Source: Nostoc cf. commune SO-36 | Lineage (GTDB): Bacteria; Cyanobacteriota; Cyanobacteriia; Cyanobacteriales; Nostocaceae | Direction: 5' to 3' | NCBI RefSeq assembly: GCF_023734775.1 | Contig: NZ_AP025732.1 | Location: forward strand, 4,036,501-4,100,500 | DNA length: 64,000 nucleotides | In this document: positions 5,192 to 21,436 of the stretch, piece by piece | Numbering within the stretch: the first letter of the stretch is position 1 | Layout: every line of letters begins with the position of its first letter | The notes under the pieces: model-generated | Told to the model about the DNA's origin: nothing | Seen by the model: only the letters and a program-made list of their open reading frames with translations | Database searches by the model: none | Made by a program: the position numbers and the translations under genes

Positions 5192-6094
5192 TTATTTTTC
5201 TGGTTTTAGCAATTCACCTTTAGAACAGCGGTCAAACCACTCCTGGTATTTTTTCTGCTGTGACTCATCTTCAACAGCAACAGTAACACGCACTTGCTTG
5301 CATCCGTGATTTCGCTCTTGTGCGATCGCATTCAATAATAAACTAGCAATTTTAGGTGAGCTAAATTCGCCCCTTACAGTTAAACTACTGTCAAATCCTG
5401 CAAATTCAAGTCTTTCTACTTCCGTCAACTCAACACCAGCAATTTCTCCTTGCTCTAAATCAATTTCTGCAAGTTGTTTGTGTTCTGGGCTAATTTGCTC
5501 GACAATCAACTTTTCCCGATGGACAGGAACTTGTACCATCCGGGTTTCGATTACTTTGCGAACAATTACTTCACCAACTTTACGCTTACTGCTTTCAACA
5601 AATAGTCGTTCTTCTAGCAGACGAATGATCTGCTCTTCACTAACCTGTTCTGAGTCTACTGGCTCAACTGGGCTATTTATAGTTTGATTATTGGCTAGTT
5701 GCTCAGTTGAGTCGCGTAGGCGTAGACCGTCGTAGTTATCGCCTGGTGTTTCTGCTTCTAAATATTCAGGCATATACTCGATTTCTGATTTTTTTAAGTC
5801 TATGAAAACAGATTTGGTCGGTTTGTCGATTTTTTTTATTCTCTGGCTCTGCAATCGAAACAAAGAGGGGCGTTTATTAGCTAACGGTTCCCTATATTCT
5901 CCAGTTTGTTGATTTGCCTGGTTAGATATAACTAAATTTAGCCGACGATTAGCATCGACAATTAAATCATGAACTACTCCTACTAGCTCACCTTGCTGAT
6001 CGAATACAGAAAAATTGTTCACCTTCTGTCTTAAATCTGCCAGGGAGGAGGTAGTGCTAGAGTTACCGTTTGTCTGTACAATATTTTGTGCCAT
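5192..6094 (-). CDS. DUF2382 protein with degenerate PRC-barrel-like N-terminus
   Basis: First of three neighbouring DUF2382 proteins. DUF2382 (YsnF/AvaK-like) is a stress-associated, charged, repetitive domain of unknown biochemical function. The ATG at 6094 (MAQNIVQ) is preferred over an upstream TTG. Residues about 20-70 (FSVFDQQGELVGVVHDLIVD) resemble a PRC-barrel strand set. A DUF2382 unit follows (LLEERLFVESSKRKVGEVIV..VPVHREKLIVEQ). The C-terminal 80 residues differ from the two upstream paralogues and contain VRGEFSSPKIASLLLNAIAQ. The segment coding for YDGLRLRDS overlaps a dispersed-repeat-like stretch (5711-5743), suggesting an in-frame repeat insertion. No enzymatic motif seen. Confidence 0.75.
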   Translation of the reverse strand: MAQNIVQTNGNSSTTSSLADLRQKVNNFSVFDQQGELVGVVHDLIVDANRRLNLVISNQANQQTGEYREPLANKRPSLFRLQSQRIKKIDKPTKSVFIDLKKSEIEYMPEYLEAETPGDNYDGLRLRDSTEQLANNQTINSPVEPVDSEQVSEEQIIRLLEERLFVESSKRKVGEVIVRKVIETRMVQVPVHREKLIVEQISPEHKQLAEIDLEQGEIAGVELTEVERLEFAGFDSSLTVRGEFSSPKIASLLLNAIAQERNHGCKQVRVTVAVEDESQQKKYQEWFDRCSKGELLKPEK

Positions 6095-6115
6095 AGGTTG
6101 GCTATTTATCTGCAA

Positions 6116-6351
6116 AGTTTACGAACTGTTTTCTACTTAGCTAAATTAAATGTATTAATCATCTAAATCCCATTTAGAAAATCTTTGCGAACAACATATT
6201 TACACAACCCATATCGAGAAGAATATTCGCAATCGTCGCTCTAAAGTGGTATCAGCTATTGGAAGCACAGGTAAAGCTTATTCAACAACCTTACCTGCAC
6301 TGTATCAAATTACTTATTAGTCATTAGCTAATAACTAATGACTATATTTAG
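6116..6351. other. Spacer with a terminator-like hairpin
   Basis: A perfect 10-bp stem (TAGTCATTAG / CTAATGACTA, 6318-6344) lies just past the stop of the DUF2382 gene ending at 6352 and may terminate it. A stretch of about 50 codons without a start is open on the plus strand (6165-6320) and might be a gene remnant, but nothing recognisable is in it. Confidence 0.4.
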
Positions 6352-9187: not shown

Positions 9188-9931
9188 ATGCAGATTATGA
9201 GTCAACTTCCAAATAGTCTTGAAGATGCGATCGCCCAATCTCAAACAGCCGTGCAAGCTGCCCTTAAAGACGGCCTTACTCGGATACAAGTTGAGTTCTT
9301 GTTCCCAGAACTCAAGTTTATGCCGGTGGCGGAACAATTTCTACCACTGTTTACAGAATATGATTCTCGTTTGAAGATTTTCTTTGCTGACGCGGGTGCT
9401 GCGGCTTTAGCCCGCCGCAATTGGGTTGATGCACCATTTCAAATTTTGGATATTGGAACGGGAAGGGCTGCTTCCTTGCAGGCAAAAATTCAGCCAGAGG
9501 ATGAAATTTTCTTGTTCATCGCACCTACTTCCATAGAAGTACCGCAGTTGGAAAAGTTATGTGAAATAATAAGCGATCGCCCTTTAGTCTTCTTAAATCC
9601 CCGCTTAGAAGATGCTGGAACTGTGGGCATTGGTTATACAGCGAGAAAAGTCCGCGATCGCTTCATCAGTACCATTGAATCCGCCTATTACCTCCGCCCT
9701 ATAGATGATGAAAGTGCCTTATATCGCTGCTACCCCGGACAGTGGGAAGTTTGGCTGGAAACCAACGGCGAATATCAAAGGATTGCTGAATTACCCACCA
9801 AACCATCAGGTGATGAGTTGGATCTCATCCTTTTAAAAGGGCAACCGCAAACAACAACAGACGCGACATCTGCGAAAAAGCCCAATGTGTTTAAGAGTTT
9901 GCAACGGTTTCTAAAAGCGTTGAGTAGTTAA
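9188..9931 (+). CDS. DUF1995 family protein
   Basis: 247 residues, a family shared by cyanobacteria and chloroplasts; the Arabidopsis photosystem II assembly factor LPA3 is a member as I recall it. Diagnostic stretches are LPNSLEDAIAQSQTAVQAAL at the start, RIQVEFLFPELKFMPVAEQF, and YTARKVRDRFISTIESAYYLRPIDD followed by YPGQWEVW near the C-terminus. No signal peptide or membrane segment, so cytosolic or membrane-peripheral. A second ATG nine bases downstream (MSQLPNS) is an equally good start. Probably a photosynthesis-related accessory factor, by family only. Confidence 0.85.
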   Translation: MQIMSQLPNSLEDAIAQSQTAVQAALKDGLTRIQVEFLFPELKFMPVAEQFLPLFTEYDSRLKIFFADAGAAALARRNWVDAPFQILDIGTGRAASLQAKIQPEDEIFLFIAPTSIEVPQLEKLCEIISDRPLVFLNPRLEDAGTVGIGYTARKVRDRFISTIESAYYLRPIDDESALYRCYPGQWEVWLETNGEYQRIAELPTKPSGDELDLILLKGQPQTTTDATSAKKPNVFKSLQRFLKALSS

Positions 9932-10088
9932 GATAATGCAGAGGTAGCAGAGATAAATTTTATTATCTGCTGCCTCCTTTGCCCTATACCAGACAGACAA
10001 AGACTTTGTAAATCTAAGCAAGTACTAACTGTTTTTAATTCTAAAGTTATGAATGGATAGCAATAAATTAAGTGGTATTTCTGGAGAT

Positions 10089-11635: not shown

Positions 11636-14600
11636 TTAATTCCCTTGTAACGGGGCGTTTAAGACTTTCTCAATGCGATCGCGCGTTTCTAGTAAGTGGG
11701 CTTTGGTGTATTCATCCTCGGAATTAACTCCTTTGAGTTTATCATCTAGCTGTTTGAGTTTATACCAAGCTAAAGTCCGAGCATCTTCAGGAACATATTC
11801 TTTTCGCAATACCATACCAGTCAAAATGTCCAGGTATTCCCTCTGCAAACCTCGCCGTAGACTGGCGATTTTCATCGGTTTATCTTTTGGTTTGATTACT
11901 TCTGTCCAAACACCTGATTGTAAAGTGTCAAATAGTTCCGGTAGAGTCAGTGCTTTTCCCTCACTAGTTTTGAGTTCGATATCTTTGAGGCGAGAGAGGC
12001 GATCGCCTGAGAGTAAATCTCGCAACACAGAACTCTGCATGAGTAGCACCAAGTCATGAATTGGAAAATCCAAACGACCAACTTGCGGATAACTACCCCA
12101 ATGCCGCCAACGGGAAGGTGCTAACTTATTCAGTAGTTCTGGTGAAAACTTCAGGGCATCTTCTGCAAACACATACTTTTGCAGCGTCTCTAAAGCCTGC
12201 CGTTGTTCTTCAACTGGTACTGCTTCAAATGGTAATCGATGTTGCCGGACTCCAGAGACTTTCTGGGAGGGGATCTCGTTAGGGTGAATGCGATAGAAAG
12301 ACTGTCCCCCGATGTATTTTGTGGTGTAATATATTTGCTGGAAATAGTTACCCAATACCGTGCTAAAACGTTCGCTCACATCGCTGTAACTATCACCATC
12401 CATTGGGAAACGTTGATCGAGACGTTCCCACATCACCCGCGAATTATTCAATTGCCACTGAGAATAAAGCAGCACATTGCCGCTGTTATCCCAAGCATCA
12501 GCAGTTGGGTCAAGGTCATACACGTCTTCATCTGTAGAATAACTCAACTCTGGCTTATAGGATTGTGCAGCAATTTCCTCTAAAATTGGCTTTTCTGCTA
12601 GGGGAGTTGATGTCGGAATTTGTGTGTAGCCGTACTTAATCGCCCATTCATCATAAGGCCCTACCATGCTAGGAAAATAATCTCCCTGTTTTGTACCTTG
12701 AGGAGCAATATTTGGGGGAATATAATCCATTACGGAAGTTGTCAGACCTTTAGCTTTGGTAATTTCTGTATTATTCATCTCCTGCGGTGGTAACAGTGTA
12801 CTACCACGGAAATTATGACGTAAACCAAGAGTATGCCCAACTTCGTGAGCGATGATTAAACGTAAATATTGATTGATATATTCTTTCATCTGGTCTGGAG
12901 TGGCCATAGTCTCTGGCAGCAGTGACATCGCTAGTGAACCAACGGCAAACTGGTTAGCAGCTTCCATCCCGTAGCATAAATCGTACTCGCCTGCCATTTT
13001 TGATAAACGACTCAACAAACCCTGTTTCCCTTGCATTTGCTGGGGCACACCACTGTTTTTCGCATCTAAACCATTAGCGCAAAGTAGACGATTTTGCATC
13101 AAAGCTGATAAAGTGGTGCGATTTTCTGTTTGGCTGGGCTGAACGATTTTGCGATACTCACTTTTGAGTACCCTTACAAAGCTGGCATCTACGAGAATGT
13201 CTGCATCCAAAATTTCCCCTGTTAATGGGTTAACGCGGGATGGCCCCATTGCAAAGTATCCATCTACTGTGTTAATCCAGCGAATTGTGTTGTAACGAAT
13301 ATCTGCTGGATCCCATGTGGCATCATCTGGCATTTGGCGGACTTCAATTGCATCCTTAAATCCGGCTTTGAGGAAGGCTTTGTTCCACATCAGAACGCCT
13401 TCTTTCATCGCATCGCGGTACTCTAAGGGTACAGCGTTATCAATCCAGAAGACAATCGGTTTTTTGGGGTGAGAAATTATTGCTTTCGGGTCTTGTTTTT
13501 CTAAATGCCAGCGATTGATGTAGCGGACAAAAGAATCGCCGCGATCGTCTTTGGATAAATCTTGATAGGCGGTGATGAAATAGCCGATGCGATCGTCAGC
13601 AGTGCGTGGTCGATAATCTTGATCGGGTAGTTGGGAGAGACTGTAGTGGACGCGCAGGGTAAAGCCACGGTTGTCAGCTAGCGAAGCAAAGCTTGCCACT
13701 TCACTGTCGCGGTCAACGCCACCAGAGAAATTTAAAACTGATTCGATTTCTAAGTTTTGGGGAAAAGCTTTAGCAGTACCAAAATAAGACTGATCTGTAC
13801 TTCCCGGTACTCCTAAATTTACAGATAATCCAGCTAAGTCTGTGAGTAACAAATCTCCCAAGTCAATCAGAAAAGTTTTGCGTTCTGGATGAATGCTTTT
13901 AATGGAAATGCTATATAAAACAGAGTCACTAAAAGACCGCGCTAGCGATCGCACTTGCGGATCTCCCTCACGAGTGCGAAAATTCACATTGCGGATCACA
14001 AAGTTTAATTTATCATCTACCCGTTGGAAATAAAACAAAAAATCTTGCAGAGGCATACCACTGTAAATACCCCGTTCGCCAATGCCCGATTCTAGGGTTG
14101 CCGTAGCTAGGTAATTTTTATTAAGTTGTTCTGGCTTAATTTCTAGATAAATCTTATTCTTTTCTTTGTTGCGATAAAGGGTGAACAATCCCCCTGACTT
14201 TTGGGTGTCTTTGATTACTTCGTTAAATGGTTCCAAATCATCCTTAGCTGCTGGTTTAGCACTAGGACTAGGCTTTGTATTTGGTTTTTCTGGAGGTTTG
14301 GCAACTTGTAAAAATGGCTGCTGTGCTGATTTTTTCAGGTCTTTGACTACCCACATAAACGGTTGAGGCTGTGCGGCTTTACTTTGGTTAACTACCCAAA
14401 CTTGCCCTGATGGTAGCCTCTCTTTATCAGAAATATTGATATTATTTGGCGATAAGGCTGAGGTTTTAGTTACAGGAAATTCTGTTTTTAACTGACTATT
14501 GGATTTTTCTTCATTCCTAGCTGTCACCACAGCTTCTACAACTCTATGGTTGCCTGACAAAGTATCAACTTTGTTAACAGACGGTGACTTGGCACTAGCC

Positions 14601-14668
14601 GTTACTATTCCTAAAAACAAACCATGTAACAAAATCATATAAAAAGTTAATCTGTTCATCGCATCCAT
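11636..14668 (-). CDS. Secreted zinc-dependent metalloprotease (DUF5117 family)
   Basis: 1010 residues. An N-terminal hydrophobic stretch (MNRLTFYMILLHGLFLGIV) is a signal peptide or anchor; a second ATG nine bases in is also possible. A low-complexity Pro/Ser/Lys linker (about 110-150) precedes the DUF5117/DUF5118-type region. The zincin motif HEVGHTLGLRHN lies near residue 607, with FRGS next and SVMDYIPPN downstream as a Met-turn. Length and order match the large zinc-dependent proteases found in cyanobacteria and Bacteroidota. Expected to act outside the cytoplasm; substrate unknown. Monocistronic. Confidence 0.88.
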   Translation of the reverse strand: MDAMNRLTFYMILLHGLFLGIVTASAKSPSVNKVDTLSGNHRVVEAVVTARNEEKSNSQLKTEFPVTKTSALSPNNINISDKERLPSGQVWVVNQSKAAQPQPFMWVVKDLKKSAQQPFLQVAKPPEKPNTKPSPSAKPAAKDDLEPFNEVIKDTQKSGGLFTLYRNKEKNKIYLEIKPEQLNKNYLATATLESGIGERGIYSGMPLQDFLFYFQRVDDKLNFVIRNVNFRTREGDPQVRSLARSFSDSVLYSISIKSIHPERKTFLIDLGDLLLTDLAGLSVNLGVPGSTDQSYFGTAKAFPQNLEIESVLNFSGGVDRDSEVASFASLADNRGFTLRVHYSLSQLPDQDYRPRTADDRIGYFITAYQDLSKDDRGDSFVRYINRWHLEKQDPKAIISHPKKPIVFWIDNAVPLEYRDAMKEGVLMWNKAFLKAGFKDAIEVRQMPDDATWDPADIRYNTIRWINTVDGYFAMGPSRVNPLTGEILDADILVDASFVRVLKSEYRKIVQPSQTENRTTLSALMQNRLLCANGLDAKNSGVPQQMQGKQGLLSRLSKMAGEYDLCYGMEAANQFAVGSLAMSLLPETMATPDQMKEYINQYLRLIIAHEVGHTLGLRHNFRGSTLLPPQEMNNTEITKAKGLTTSVMDYIPPNIAPQGTKQGDYFPSMVGPYDEWAIKYGYTQIPTSTPLAEKPILEEIAAQSYKPELSYSTDEDVYDLDPTADAWDNSGNVLLYSQWQLNNSRVMWERLDQRFPMDGDSYSDVSERFSTVLGNYFQQIYYTTKYIGGQSFYRIHPNEIPSQKVSGVRQHRLPFEAVPVEEQRQALETLQKYVFAEDALKFSPELLNKLAPSRWRHWGSYPQVGRLDFPIHDLVLLMQSSVLRDLLSGDRLSRLKDIELKTSEGKALTLPELFDTLQSGVWTEVIKPKDKPMKIASLRRGLQREYLDILTGMVLRKEYVPEDARTLAWYKLKQLDDKLKGVNSEDEYTKAHLLETRDRIEKVLNAPLQGN

Positions 14669-15163: not shown

Positions 15164-16930
15164 ATGTCAACATATTTATCTCAAGTCTGGCTGCTGCTGA
15201 GAAATTATGTGAGGGGTACAAGGTTGCAAGAGATGCCAAAGACCACATCGCTAGAAACTGAAGCAGTTTTACCTTTAGGAAAAAGTATTAAAGCAGACAA
15301 AAGTGTTAAATTTGCTCAAGATAATTTGCAGGAGTATTTATACTCGCCAACACTGCAAAAAAGCTTAGAAAAATGGACAATACCAGTCAACGGTTTGACT
15401 TCTAAGATAGATAATCAGACATCGGGCATTGTCGCTTCTGGGTTTTGCTTTAAAATATGCGATCGCCAGATGCATGAAGAGATTTACGAATTATTGGGTA
15501 ATAGTGCCCTGAAACCAGAAATAGTTCACCAATTAATAGAATTGGTTGTGACAAATAAGAAAATTCGCCTAGAACTGCTTTTCTGGCGGCTAGAAGATTT
15601 TTATCGTCGCTGGTGTCAGGGAGAATTTATCGATGGGACACCAGATAATAACCTGCCTCAGAAAACCAGATTAAAACTAGCAGCAGAAAATATTGCGATC
15701 GGGTTGAGACAAGTAGACATATATACAGGGTTAAACGTACTAATTTTACTGTTAGAGTTACACCGCTACGCCCAAGAGCGAGATGAACTCAAACAAAAAA
15801 TCACCTTCTATCCATCCGCACAACCAGACACAGACAATTTTTTCACATCCCAATTACTGCGGATCATCAACTATAGTGATGCACTGGAAATTGGCAACTT
15901 TAGCAGCATAGTTGGGCAATTCCTCAAAGGGGGCAACTTTCAGAATGCTTACCTGGGTGATGCCAACCTCACCGGGGCAGACTTTAGCGGTGCTAACCTA
16001 AGCTTTGCTTATCTCGGCGATGCCAACTTAACTGGTGTCAACTTCAGTGGTGCCAACCTTAGCGGTGCTAACTTGGGGGATGCCAACCTTAGCGGTGCCA
16101 ACCTTAGCGGTGCCAACCTCAGCCGCGCCGACCTCAGCAGCACCAACCTCAGTGGTGCTAACCTTAGTTGTGCCAACCTTAGCCGCGCCGACCTCAACCG
16201 CGCCGACCTCAGCAGCACCAACCTCAGCCGCGCCGACGTCAGCCATGCCGACCTCAACCGCGCCGACCTCAGCAGCACCAACCTTAGCCATGCTGACTTA
16301 AGTAACGCCATCCTTTTCGGTGCGAATCTGAGTGAAGCCAACCTCCGCAACACTAATCTTAACCATGCTGACCTCTGTCGTGCCGACCTCAGTGGTGCTG
16401 ATTTGAGTCACGCCATCCTCAACGGTACTAACCTTAGTGACACAATTCTTTTCAGTACCAACCTTAGTAATGCCATTCTTGTTGCCGCAGACCTGAGCTA
16501 TGCCAAACTTAATGGGGCCAAACTTAACAATGCCAGACTTAACGGTGCAATGTTTTTAGGCGCCGACCTTAGCGGTGTAGACCTTAGTCGGGTAATTCTC
16601 AACGAAGCCGACCTGAGTGGTGTGATTCTCAACGAAGCCGACCTCAGTGGTGCCGACCTCACCGACGCTATTCTTTTCGGTACAGACTTCAGTTATGCCA
16701 ACCTTAACAGTGCTAACCTCAGTGGCAGTAACCTCAGTGGTGCTATCCTCAATGGTGCGGATCTCAGCCATAGTGACCTAAGTTACGCCATTCTGGGTGG
16801 TGCTGACCTCAGCGATGCCAATATGGAAAAAATGACCTGGGGTAAAAAGCAGCAGTGGGAAGATGTGCGGGGATTAGAGACAGCAGTTAATATGCCTCCG
16901 GCGTTGAAGGAAGAATTGGGGTTGAATTGA
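15164..16930 (+). CDS. Pentapeptide-repeat protein sharing a middle domain with the downstream NACHT protein
   Basis: 588 residues. A unique N-terminus (about 1-115) is followed by a helical region, about 120-250 ([66 protein letters not shown]), clearly homologous to residues 620-770 of the next gene. About sixty A(N/D)LSx pentapeptides follow (about 255-553), which fold as a right-handed quadrilateral beta-helix. It closes with a short cap (WEDVRGLETAVNMPPALKEELGLN) also present in the next protein. It lacks the NTPase part, so it looks like a C-terminal half with a new N-terminus. The stop TGA is in frame with the next gene. Function unknown. Confidence 0.85.
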   Translation: MSTYLSQVWLLLRNYVRGTRLQEMPKTTSLETEAVLPLGKSIKADKSVKFAQDNLQEYLYSPTLQKSLEKWTIPVNGLTSKIDNQTSGIVASGFCFKICDRQMHEEIYELLGNSALKPEIVHQLIELVVTNKKIRLELLFWRLEDFYRRWCQGEFIDGTPDNNLPQKTRLKLAAENIAIGLRQVDIYTGLNVLILLLELHRYAQERDELKQKITFYPSAQPDTDNFFTSQLLRIINYSDALEIGNFSSIVGQFLKGGNFQNAYLGDANLTGADFSGANLSFAYLGDANLTGVNFSGANLSGANLGDANLSGANLSGANLSRADLSSTNLSGANLSCANLSRADLNRADLSSTNLSRADVSHADLNRADLSSTNLSHADLSNAILFGANLSEANLRNTNLNHADLCRADLSGADLSHAILNGTNLSDTILFSTNLSNAILVAADLSYAKLNGAKLNNARLNGAMFLGADLSGVDLSRVILNEADLSGVILNEADLSGADLTDAILFGTDFSYANLNSANLSGSNLSGAILNGADLSHSDLSYAILGGADLSDANMEKMTWGKKQQWEDVRGLETAVNMPPALKEELGLN

Positions 16931-19765
16931 GATGAGGGGGCAAGGAAGACTGGCAAGGCAGTTTTAGAAGCGGCAAATACCTTTAAAGAACAAGGTGCCA
17001 GCCTAGAACTATTGAAACCTCTATTACAAAACTCATCTTCACTACTAGATGTGTTGTGTTCACCTTTAGCGCAGGTGGTGGGTGCGGGTTTGCCATTCGT
17101 GCCGCTTGGAATAGCCTTGCTAAAGTATTCCCGCGACGTAACCAAGCAAGATCCTTCTTTAGTAGACTGTATATTTATAGTTAGTCAAGTAGCTTATTTA
17201 GAAAGTATCCAAGAAATTTTATCTTTATACCCATCTATTAAATTGAATAGTGACCTCAATATTAATAAAGCACTAACCAAAGAACTAGAAAAACTAAATG
17301 ATATTGAATTAGATTATCAAAATGCCAGCAATGCTATAGCCTGTTTCCACGAATCAGAATTAGCTAAAGCATTTAATCAAGTTTTATTAGCGCGGTTAGC
17401 AGCAGCAAACATCCCCAATGCTCATGCTAATATTTTGACGCAACGAGTAGCTTGGAATACTCACCGCTACATAATTCAAGCCTGGATAGAATCAGGGGAT
17501 GCCATCAAAAATATAATTCAACCTTCCTTTGGAGAATGGCAGAAAGAACAGCAGAAGTTCTCTAGTATTGATGAATACCTAAAAGATCATATTGCTGGTA
17601 AGCCTTTAGAAAAAGTTTTTGATGAGAGTTTTTCATTTAAAGATATTTACGTACCTTTAAAAGCCAAACCTGTAGATAAAAATGGCGATATAGATGAAAA
17701 AGTAAATTCCTTAGATTTAGAAACGTGGGCTAAAGAAAATCTGCTCAATCCAAATAACTTAGAACAAGTGATGTTTGTTCAAGGAAGCCCAGGAAGTGGC
17801 AAAAGTGTCTTCTGTCGGATGTTTTCTGATTGGGTGCGGCAGCATTTGCATCCCATTTGGACACCAATTTTGGTTCGCTTACGGGATCTAGACTCCTTTG
17901 AATCGAGTTTAGCAAAAACTTTAAAAGCAGAACTGAAAATTAGCTTTATTCAAAGCGATGAAAACTGGTTGACGAATAAAAACACCGGTTTCTTGTTTAT
18001 CCTTGATGGGTTTGATGAATTGCATATTAAGGCTAGAAACGACCTCAATCTAGAAAAATTTATCAAACAACTTTCTGGATTTCAGGAAGATTGTAAAGAT
18101 TACCCTAATATGGGACATCGGGTGTTAATTACTGGTAGGTCGATGTCTTTACAAGGTATCCCTGACTTGCCTCGCAATTTAGAGCGGGTGGAAATTGTCG
18201 AAATGGATGGACAACTCCAACAAAAATGGTTAGAGAAGTGGGAAGAATTACTAGCCAATAAAGGAAGAACCGCAGCCTTTGGGCAGTTTTTACAAGGTGA
18301 TAAATGTCCATCTGAGGTGAAAAATTTAGCCCAAGAGCCGCTCTTACTTTATTTGTTAGCCGCAATGTATCGAGATGGGAAATTGGCAATTGATAAATTA
18401 GAGCAAGCAAACCATAGCACAGCCAAAATTGTAATTTATCAGGAGGCTTTAAACTGGGTACTGACAAAACAGCGTTCTAAAAAGGATGGGACTAATTTAA
18501 ATATTGAGTTAACCAAACAGAAACCCGAAGATTTAAAACGTATTCTCACAGAAGCGGCTGTTTGCGTTGTGCAGTCGGGAGGCGAATTTGCTTCCATGTC
18601 AATGTTAGAAGCCCGTTTACAAGATGACGAAACAGCAAAAGCTTTAATTGAAAAAGCTAAAGAAAAACTGGGTAACGAAGCTCTCAAAACAGCTTTAGCT
18701 GCTTTTTACATTCGTCCTGCTGATAAACAAGAGGGTGGAGTTGAGTTTTTTCATAAGAGTTTTGGCGAATTTCTCTTTGCTGAACGTCTAAAAGTACGTT
18801 TGAAAGATTGGACAAAATACTATAAAGCAGAAGATGAAAGACAATTAGTTATTTCCGAAGCCCAAATGAATTGGCAAATTTATGATTTGCTGGGTTTTGG
18901 CAGACTCACACCAGAAATTGTGGAATATTTGATGGGGTTGCTGACTGAAAATCAAGATTTCCCTTGGGAGCAGTTATTTAAGCGCTTAGAAAAGTTTTAC
19001 GTTAACTGGTGTAAGGGAAAATTTATTGACTCTGCTGAAGAGACTTTACCTCAGAAAAAGCTGCGACAGTTGCAAAAGTATGGAATTCAAGAGCTAGGTC
19101 AGCGTCAGGTAGATATTTATGCAGGGTTGAATGTGATGATTTTGCTCTTGGAGTTGCACCGCTATGTTCAAGAGCGAGATGATCTCAAAAAACAGATTAT
19201 CTTCTATCCGTCTGGTCAACCAAATAAAAATTCTTGGACAGCCCAACTGTTTCGCATCATCAACTACAGTGATTGCATTCAGCTTGGAACTTTTAATAGT
19301 GTAGTTGGACAATTTCTCAGCGGCGCAAACCTCAGCGGCGCAAACCTCAGCGACGCAAACCTCAGCGACGCAAACCTCAGCCGCACATACCTCGCCCACA
19401 CATACCTCGCCCGCGTAAACCTCAGCGACGCAGACCTCAGCGACGCAAATCTCAGTGGCGCAGACCTCAGCCGCGCAAACCTCACTCGCGCAAACCTTAG
19501 TGGTGCAGACCTTAGCCAAGCACAAATCCTCCGCGCAGACCTTAGTGGCGCAGACCTCACTCGCGCAAACCTCACTCGCGCAAACCTTAGTGGCTCATAC
19601 CTCAGTGATGAATTTTATGGAGATATCCGCTGGGATGAAAATACAAAATGGGATGATGTAAAAGGGCTGGATACAGCAATCAATGTGCCAGAAGCCTTAA
19701 AGCAACAGTTGGGGCTGAGTTCAGAAGAGTTGGAAGCAAAGGAACAGGGGAGAATCAGTACATAA
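16931..19765 (+). CDS. NACHT (STAND) NTPase with C-terminal pentapeptide repeats
   Basis: The frame is open from the codon after the preceding gene's TGA ([18 protein letters not shown]..), and that segment looks like authentic protein, but it has no ATG. The first non-ATG candidate start is TTG at 17012. Order of parts: an N-terminal helical region (about 1-245), Walker A GSPGSGKS and Walker [11 protein letters not shown], a winged-helix-like region with [15 protein letters not shown], the helical domain shared with the upstream protein, and about 18 pentapeptides (AxLSx) with cap [22 protein letters not shown] NTPases are ligand-triggered switches, and many NACHT proteins act in phage defence; that role here is inference. 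Confidence 0.85.
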
Positions 19766-19789: not shown

Positions 19790-20110
19790 ACCTCTCCCTG
19801 GTTTTACTACGCAAAACCGTCCCTCTCCGACTCGGAGAGGGACAGACTTGAACTTTAGTTTAAGGCAGGGAGAGGTTCGTCGAACTCACAGAAAACACGA
19901 ACTTCCGAGAATATTTGTAGGTTGGGTTGAACGAAGTGAAACCCAACAAACCCCGCAAAATGTTGGGTTTCGTTCCTCAACCCAACCTACACATTTTTAT
20001 TTTTTGGGTTTAACCGAACCGTATTAGAGGAGGGACAGACTTGAACTAAAACTCAAGGCAGAGAGAGGTTCGTCGAGCTCACGCAAAACACGAACTTCCG
20101 AGTTCCGAAC
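19790..20110. repeat. Direct-repeat pair flanking a long palindrome
   Basis: Two diverged copies of about 75 bp (19834-19909 and 20031-20104), sharing GGGACAGACTTGAACT, AGAGAGGTTCGTCGA-like and AAAACACGAACTTCCGAG segments. Between them is a palindrome (arms about 19916-19948 and 19961-19991, GTAGGTTGGGTTGA.. / ..CAACCCAACCTAC). The second copy runs straight into the 21-nt array. Confidence 0.65.
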
Positions 20111-20211
20111 ACGAACTTCCAAGTTCCGAACACGAACTTCCGAGTTCCGAACACCAACTTCCGAGTTCCGAACACGAACTTCCGAGTTCCGAACACCAAC
20201 TTCCGAGTTCC
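20091..20211. repeat. 21-nt tandem array, about 5.8 units
   Basis: Unit CGAACTTCCGAGTTCCGAACA (with one unit CCAAG and alternating CCAAC starts), six registers at exactly 21 nt from 20091. Each unit contains AACTTCCGAGTTC, the same 13-nt core (reverse strand) as the array at 31429-31716. The core has AACT/AGTT inverted ends. Confidence 0.85.
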
Positions 20212-20365: not shown

Positions 20366-21436
20366 ATGACCTCATCTGCGTCGTTTGACACATTAGAGTC
20401 TTTACAGGCGGATATCGCTGAATTGATCGTTCGTTTACCGACATTAAAAAATCGGCAATTTATTCAGCAAGCACTTGCTACTATTATTCGTCTAGCTGAT
20501 ACCGAAATTGAGCGTCTCGATTGGAAAATATTGTCGGCTGCCTTAGCAGATATGGAACGCGGTTTCCAGCTTTTTTATGATTACCGACACGTTCGCAAAG
20601 TCACCATCTTCGGTTCTGCTCGTCTAGCGCCAGATACACCAGATTACCAAATGGCCCTTGAGTTTGGTCGTGCTATTTCTCAATTAGGATTTATGGTCAT
20701 GACTGGCGGTGGTGGTGGAATCATGCAGGCGGGTCATGAAGGTGCTGGGCGAGAAAATTCTTTTGGATTAAACATTCAGTTACCCTTTGAACAAGAAGCA
20801 AACCCCTTTATAGAAGGTGATCCCAAGCTAATTAACTTCAAATATTTCTTTACCCGCAAGTTGTTTCTCCTCAAAGAAAGTGATGCTGTAGCTTTGTTTC
20901 CTGGAGGCTTTGGGACTCAAGATGAAGCTTTTGAATGTATGACATTAAGCCAGACTGGTAAATTTGGCCCACTACCTCTAGTTTTAATTGACCACCCTGG
21001 TGGTGATTACTGGCGCTCTTGGAGCGAATATATTGATAAGCAATTAGTGCAAAATGGTCTTGTCAGTCCTGAAGATCCCAACCTTTATACGGTGACAGAT
21101 AACTTGGATGTGGCTTGTGATGCCATTACTAGTTTTTACCAGGTTTATCACTCCAGCCGCTATGTAAGCAATAAGTTAGTCATCCGCCTGAAGACAGATA
21201 TATCAGACGCGCTTGTAGAGCAACTCAATGCAGATTTTAGCGACATCCTGATTCAAGGAAGAATTGAAAAAAGTCAGGCATTAGCTCAAGAATCCCAAGA
21301 TGAAACTTTTGGACTACCCCGTCTCACTTTGTACTTCAATCAACGCGACTTGGGGCGCTTGTATCAAATGATTGCCACAATTAACCAGAATGGTACTCCT
21401 TCACCAGAGGATGTAGCGCATCCAGAAAGAAAGTAA
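20366..21436 (+). CDS. LOG-family (TIGR00730-like) nucleotide-processing protein
   Basis: 356 residues. A Rossmann-like LOG domain: FGSARLAPDTPDYQMALEFG, MTGGGGGIMQAGHEGAGREN, then the signature PGGFGTQDEAFE. LOG proteins are phosphoribohydrolases that release free base from cytokinin-type nucleotides or AMP; older databases label them lysine decarboxylase. The protein is longer than a minimal LOG (about 190 aa), with a helical N-terminal 75 residues and a C-terminal extension of about 80, as in other cyanobacterial members. Cytosolic, apparently monocistronic. Exact substrate unknown. Confidence 0.88.
   Translation: MTSSASFDTLESLQADIAELIVRLPTLKNRQFIQQALATIIRLADTEIERLDWKILSAALADMERGFQLFYDYRHVRKVTIFGSARLAPDTPDYQMALEFGRAISQLGFMVMTGGGGGIMQAGHEGAGRENSFGLNIQLPFEQEANPFIEGDPKLINFKYFFTRKLFLLKESDAVALFPGGFGTQDEAFECMTLSQTGKFGPLPLVLIDHPGGDYWRSWSEYIDKQLVQNGLVSPEDPNLYTVTDNLDVACDAITSFYQVYHSSRYVSNKLVIRLKTDISDALVEQLNADFSDILIQGRIEKSQALAQESQDETFGLPRLTLYFNQRDLGRLYQMIATINQNGTPSPEDVAHPERK

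Follow-up and report, generated by a model that had tools for sequence, protein, structure and literature searches.

An in-frame TGA between two pentapeptide genes of Nostoc cf. commune SO-36 is probably the scar of a deletion in an NLR-like NACHT gene

In Nostoc cf. commune SO-36, two tandem pentapeptide genes are read in the same frame and divided by a TGA codon, and the downstream gene has no normal start. The question is whether such a junction is a coding device or a trace of damage. The locus lies in a window of 64,000 nucleotides, the whole stretch of DNA that was analysed (G000:C1:4036501-4100500), in a genome of 7.41 Mb with 5 contigs and 99.98% completeness. By Pfam, the upstream gene (UP) encodes pentapeptide families only, and the downstream gene (DN) encodes an NNH3 domain, a NACHT domain and pentapeptides. 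An earlier note on this DNA had observed that the UP stop at 16928-16930 lies in the frame of the NACHT gene with no ATG after it, and our reading of the open reading frames agrees. From 16931 the frame runs for 944 codons without a stop until it reaches the TAA at 19763-19765. The first ATG, GTG or TTG in it is TTG 17012, which gives a protein of 917 residues, and the first ATG, at 17771, gives one of 664 residues that starts just before Walker A and lacks NNH3. The evidence below makes it very probable that the junction at the in-frame TGA is the scar of a deletion, left by gene decay, and not a new coding device.

The junction was compared by blastn with the same place in N. flagelliforme FACHB-838 (locus L039), the nearest relative among the loci compared, in which the proteins of the left neighbour MET, UP and the LOG-like right neighbour are 96.6%, 97.1% and 97.5% identical to those of the window. 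The alignment falls into two pieces, window 16807-16946 and 16947-17233, which match positions 1-140 and 655-941 of the L039 stretch. Between these pieces lie 514 bp of L039 that are absent from the window; this length is accounted for by the 451-nt spacer, apart from the 16 nt kept, together with 26 codons and a single base of codon 27. What is missing by comparison with FACHB-838 is the rest of the spacer, the DN ATG and codons 2-26, and no part of UP is lost. A deletion at the junction is thus strongly supported by the aligned sequences. The earlier note had suspected a deletion or recombination that fused the end of one paralogue to codon 2-4 of the next; the deletion stands, but it joins spacer to codon 27 and leaves UP whole. 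The same note placed protein-like sequence from the very next codon after the TGA, whereas the first 16 nt are spacer and DN homology begins at 16947. A join between the coding sequences of both paralogues was rejected, as the left side of the join is spacer. The out-of-frame ATG at 16932 is not the lost DN start, because the same ATG sits in the L039 spacer, where DN starts 451 nt past the UP stop.

Of 217 genomes searched at the DNA level across the family, 70 gave at least some match, and the best 30 places were taken as DN loci. At 29 of these 30, an in-frame ATG is present 26 codons (29 in one locus) before the junction codon, and the window is the sole exception. This is the comparison with orthologous loci that had been proposed as a check, and an ortholog set starting at TTG 17012, which would have spoken against the reading in the earlier note, was not found. 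At the protein level, 633 DN homologs were obtained at E up to 0.001 among 7995 candidates scored; 120 were listed, and their first 90 residues were read by eye. Homologs among these 120 usually open with a leader such as MNKRLSQTWQKFRQSFSVGETLTTTVE. The TTG 17012 codon corresponds to ortholog residue 49, a conserved leucine position, and only P0018 and the window's own P0001 start there. P0051 starts three residues past this position without a methionine, and it may be a contig-end fragment. P0018, the second database protein with a start of the TTG 17012 type, has 923 residues, is 86% identical over the part searched and contains a nearly complete NNH3 (profile positions 5-213 of 213); it occurs in none of the loci fetched and is known here from the protein alone.

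Ten loci with DN were compared upstream of the gene; they represent nine genomes, since L039 and L093 denote one and the same locus of FACHB-838. AGCGA precedes the DN ATG at all ten, and the distance from the UP stop to this ATG ranges from 144 to 2185 nt, with the values for L052 and L053 overstated by 3 nt where the stop was taken one codon early. The combination of a stop and a downstream frame of the readthrough type is therefore not conserved. In L094:4413-6598 (G075), the interval of about 2.2 kb between UP and DN contains two small reverse-strand reading frames, which presumably resemble a GNAT acetyltransferase and an OsmC-like protein. Cylindrospermum sp. FACHB-282 carries two DN-type genes in tandem (L045:5654-12045).

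The remaining part of DN is in good condition. Its NNH3 domain scores 207 bits against a gathering cut-off of 27, and its NACHT domain scores 35.9 bits against 26.7. The NACHT motifs are present: GSPGSGKS, taken as Walker A, a further Walker motif and EFFHKSF. By NNH3 and by NACHT with Walker A/B, DN belongs to the NNH3-NACHT-pentapeptide family of NLR-like STAND proteins, and it departs from this family in the N-terminal leader with an ATG start, present at 29 of the 30 loci and absent from the window. As in a pseudogene, a part kept by orthologs (the ATG and 26 codons) is gone. The remaining frame contains no stop, with 917 open codons from TTG 17012. Among 176 columns (P0008 residues 30-715) conserved at 90% or more in 75 homologs, the window DN is changed at 3; 14 of 16 homologs compared are changed at 0-2 each, P0022 at 4 and P0023 at 13. 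One close homolog, P0007, has an arginine in place of the Walker A lysine (aligned to K312 of P0008). Since what is left of the frame remains open, with little damage and intact motifs, we infer that the loss is recent or tolerated.

Selection on DN was estimated from the ratio of nonsynonymous to synonymous divergence (dN/dS) on each branch, using three-point distances over 680 codons and 300 bootstraps. The ratio is 0.36 (bootstrap range 0.23-0.58) for the window DN and 0.17 for that of FACHB-838, with 0.7% of bootstraps at or below no difference. Changes polarised with an outgroup number 31 synonymous and 50 nonsynonymous in the window against 39 and 24 in FACHB-838, with 11 ambiguous. The LOG-like gene shows no lean (0.21 against 0.21). 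Synonymous divergence between the window and FACHB-838 is higher in DN (0.210) than in UP (0.131) and the LOG-like gene (0.053), and in a distant pair with G013 it is lower in DN (0.340) than in UP (0.725) and the LOG-like gene (0.638). This pattern hints at exchange of DN between strains, which would blur the selection test.

Several observations weigh against reading the junction as a scar of decay. The dN/dS contrast vanishes when G033 (0.33 against 0.28) or G075 (0.28 against 0.25) is the partner, and UP, the control gene, shows the same tendency on the window branch (0.15 against 0.05, with 5.7% of bootstraps at or below no difference). Because the contrast is lost with these partners and the intact UP leans alike, relaxed selection on DN is not established. 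No promoter-like match was found on the + strand of L039 5850-6500, and loss of a promoter with the deleted stretch can be no more than supposed. The good order of the frame also fits a leaderless protein that is tolerated.

Such a protein is the subject of the most serious alternative, in which the deletion created a translationally coupled pair and DN remains a functional, leaderless NLR made by re-initiation at TTG 17012. The 917 open codons and the preserved motifs agree with it, as does P0018, annotated from the same position with NNH3 nearly complete. Yet the TTG sits 81 nt beyond the UP stop, which is far for re-initiation, and its position is that of a conserved leucine in relatives; the product would lose both the leader helix and the helix at residues 30-42 of the P0008 model. 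We consider this alternative unlikely. Clearly less likely still is an assembly artefact, in which the strain does carry the missing stretch and the assembly dropped it. Spacers of relatives can hold 21-bp tandem arrays, which are able to collapse, but neither breakpoint falls within the array: one is 16 nt beyond the TGA and the other in coding sequence, and the join contains no array unit. Collapse of the 21-bp array in assembly is therefore unlikely. The contiguity and completeness of the genome and the natural variation of spacer length in relatives also speak against an artefact. The earlier note also considered readthrough, programmed or tolerated, of TGA 16928 into a UP-DN fusion of about 1530 residues. 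The two genes do share a frame, and no further stop occurs before 19763. Readthrough cannot be ancestral, however, because relatives separate the genes by 144-2185 nt; the shared frame is a coincidence expected by chance in 1 case in 3, whereas the missing start and leader exceed chance. With nothing found in its support, readthrough is very hard to credit.

Under the deletion reading, most of the spacer and the first 26 DN codons with their ATG would have been removed in an event that left UP complete. A model was made of P0008, a 720-residue relative that has the leader and ends before the pentapeptides; a 720-residue copy with the P0008 start is found in G019, cut by a frameshift. The model has a mean predicted local distance difference test score (pLDDT) of 83.8 and a predicted template modelling score of 0.83, and it opens with a short helix at the N-terminus, followed by a linker modelled with low confidence, the helices of NNH3, the NACHT ATPase and lastly the beginning of the helical region. 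Residues 5-15 form a helix (block means 85 and 83), residues 22-25 of the linker fall below 50, and the next helix begins at 30. The lost codons are those that, by this model, encode in relatives the short N-terminal helix and linker before the NNH3-NACHT core. The best Foldseek matches of the model are NOD2, NLRC4 and NLRP3 (E 1.7e-9 to 1.6e-8, with a TM-score of at most 0.41 by query length). Apart from two longer proteins that matched in the repeats, a search of solved structures with the DN sequence gave pentapeptide chains only. DN would be a STAND NTPase of NLR-like type, possibly with its C-terminal helical and pentapeptide part as the sensor and its N-terminal helical part for signalling. 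In the window it would now be a null or very weak allele, and if a product is made at all, it would arise by re-initiation at TTG 17012 on the transcript of UP, without residues 1-48. Most likely, the window DN is silent or weakly made from this TTG; the case is one of ordinary decay of an NLR-like gene.

The locus was then followed through 53 genomes of the genus. At 49 loci, that of the window among them, the match to the UP 3' end was strong enough for the stretch to be fetched; of the other four genomes, G004 and G072 had weak matches only and G023 and G027 none. An intact DN 5' end is present at 8 of the 49, the window forms one further case, 6 loci contain remnants and 34 have no clear trace. 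G018 is counted among the latter, its sole match being 28 residues of the C-terminal cap that overlap the end of UP itself, and 10 of the 34 are less informative, as they lack the LOG-like gene in the stretch fetched (one, G070, ends at a contig end). Six of the 8 intact 5' ends belong to full-length genes of 955-1054 residues. The other two, G019 (L054) and G033 (L056), have an intact start and end before the pentapeptides, at 720 and 712 residues. The remnants (G034, G071, G024, G010, G011 and G029) show at least five different layouts. Those of G034 and G071 have the same junction, at which the DN leader runs directly into the helical region, NNH3 and NACHT having been lost; the first (L057:2120-3397) is in frame, with 426 residues, and resembles UP, and the second (L140:2240-3233) is frameshifted. 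We infer that DN is accessory in the genus and that the slot between UP and the LOG-like gene has undergone several separate decay events. UP does not seem to depend on DN, because its size is steady (588-589 residues in 40 of 49 loci), it is present where DN is absent, and its homologs are named from further genera such as Calothrix and Fischerella.

In L039, 21-bp arrays flank DN on both sides (5948-6161 and 9876-10063), and the window keeps the right one only. Of the 8 loci whose DN 5' end is intact, 4 (G019, G033, G060 and G075) have arrays on both sides, and these arrays may mediate loss of DN. Ten intervals without DN were compared with the flanks of loci that have it, top matches only. 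That of G022 follows the G019 left flank as far as the array and through it, and the G019 right flank from the array on; it looks like a chimera formed at the array, the outcome expected of recombination between arrays. In G015 and G059 the flanks are joined elsewhere than at the array, and no array unit is found at the window join 16946|16947.

UP and DN share a helical middle, pentapeptides and a cap, as the earlier note had recognised; they are about 50% identical across DN residues 600-887 and also match in the C-terminal part. In an unrooted tree of the shared helical regions, built from 79 of 233 rows, UP and DN fall into separate groups. When nine outgroup rows, which lie at a great distance (branch 2.6), are added, UP no longer makes up one side of a branch. 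The leader profiles align at an hhalign probability of 95.7, which is weak evidence with 48 and 56 sequences and effective sequence numbers (Neff) of 1.5 and 2.5; single-sequence blastp gives only E 1.4. A paralogue in the same genome (L160:1067-4084, C1 near 1.28 Mb) has 1005 residues with NNH3, NACHT, pentapeptides and the shared helical region. Because this paralogue combines the shared region with NNH3 and NACHT, the simplest history by parsimony is that UP lost its NACHT long ago, a point that the tree root does not settle. Reading frames of about 1000 residues with 30-35% identity to DN are listed in many relatives. A role of the leader as a membrane-binding amphipathic helix is not supported for DN, where the fraction of shuffles reaching the observed moment was 0.01-0.18 in ten proteins; for six UP proteins it was 0.002-0.12. 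It is a speculative thought that the locus repeatedly makes NACHT-less pentapeptide proteins that keep the leader, as decoys, regulators or immunity partners, with UP ancient and fixed, the 426-residue protein of G034 recent and the window in mid-decay.

Features of the locus, with positions counted from the first nucleotide of the window
Feature	Position	Strand	Basis
MET, 1010-aa DUF5117/DUF5118 protein; conserved left neighbour, divergent	11636..14668	-	Pfam on 13000-14668 part; relatives share neighbour
UP, intact pentapeptide protein of 588 aa without NACHT, ATG to TGA	15164..16930	+	Open reading frame, Pfam
UP N-terminal leader (MSTYLSQVW...), weak start-to-start likeness to DN leaders	15164..15214	+	hhalign, low Neff
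UP stop TGA, same frame as DN	16928..16930	+	Reading of open frames
Residual spacer left of the join; matches start of UP-DN spacer of L039	16931..16946	+	blastn
Deletion join (strongly supported), inside DN codon 27; 514 bp of L039 missing	16946..16947	+	blastn
DN, 5'-truncated NNH3-NACHT-helical-pentapeptide gene, open to TAA	16947..19765	+	Open reading frames, Pfam
NNH3 domain (PF22735) of DN	17003..17638	+	Pfam, residues 25-236 of frame from 16931
TTG, first conventional start possible in DN frame; 81 nt past UP stop	17012..17014	+	
NACHT domain (PF05729) of DN	17768..18235	+	Pfam, residues 280-435 of frame from 16931
DN helical region common to UP	18728..19315	+	Match to UP (G000:C1:4051793-4052698), 50%
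DN pentapeptide array	19316..19605	+	Pfam, repeat check
21-bp tandem array, 6 copies, right of DN	20087..20211	+	Repeat search
LOG-like (lysine-decarboxylase-family) gene, conserved right neighbour	20366..21436	+	Pfam, relatives

With a deletion as the explanation, a puzzling protein pair split by a stop becomes an identifiable event, and automatic annotation from TTG 17012 (as P0001) is seen to present a truncated gene as normal. The NLR-like slot turns over fast beside a NACHT-less neighbour, UP, that is nearly constant. These cyanobacterial relatives of NLRs have been little studied, and natural null, truncated and intact alleles are available to probe their leader helix and NACHT.

Searches of open PMC papers listed none on the UP-DN gene pair, and several known systems invite comparison. 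Bacterial NACHT and other STAND proteins are described as having an effector at the N-terminus, an NTPase in the centre and a sensor at the C-terminus (PMC10907252, PMC12169576), and by analogy a DN-type protein might be a sensor-switch. Like bNACHT25 and the bacterial NACHT (bNACHT) and NLR-related antiphage proteins treated in PMC12169576, DN has a central NACHT NTPase with flanking parts, and the model of its relative is NLR-like. Unlike them, it lacks a start and leader, and its likeness is one of sequence and model. PADLOC returned nothing for UP, P0008 and P0060, and for DN only mad8 at E 0.0052. By its domains DN is a member of the NNH3 (PF22735)-NACHT-pentapeptide proteins of cyanobacteria, from which it differs by the lost start and 26 codons. 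The STAND NTPase conflict systems of multicellular bacteria (PMC7159879, PMC8195603, PMC10907252) likewise combine STAND NTPases, superstructure-forming pentapeptide repeats and filamentous hosts, although the term NNH is absent from the available text of PMC7159879 and PMC8195603, and pentapeptide from that of PMC10907252. The closest parallel to the damage itself is the ordinary 5'-truncated pseudogene made by a short deletion, which has the same clean deletion and open downstream frame; in contrast to such pseudogenes, DN lies behind a paralogue in the same frame, and the pair mimics one gene split by a stop.

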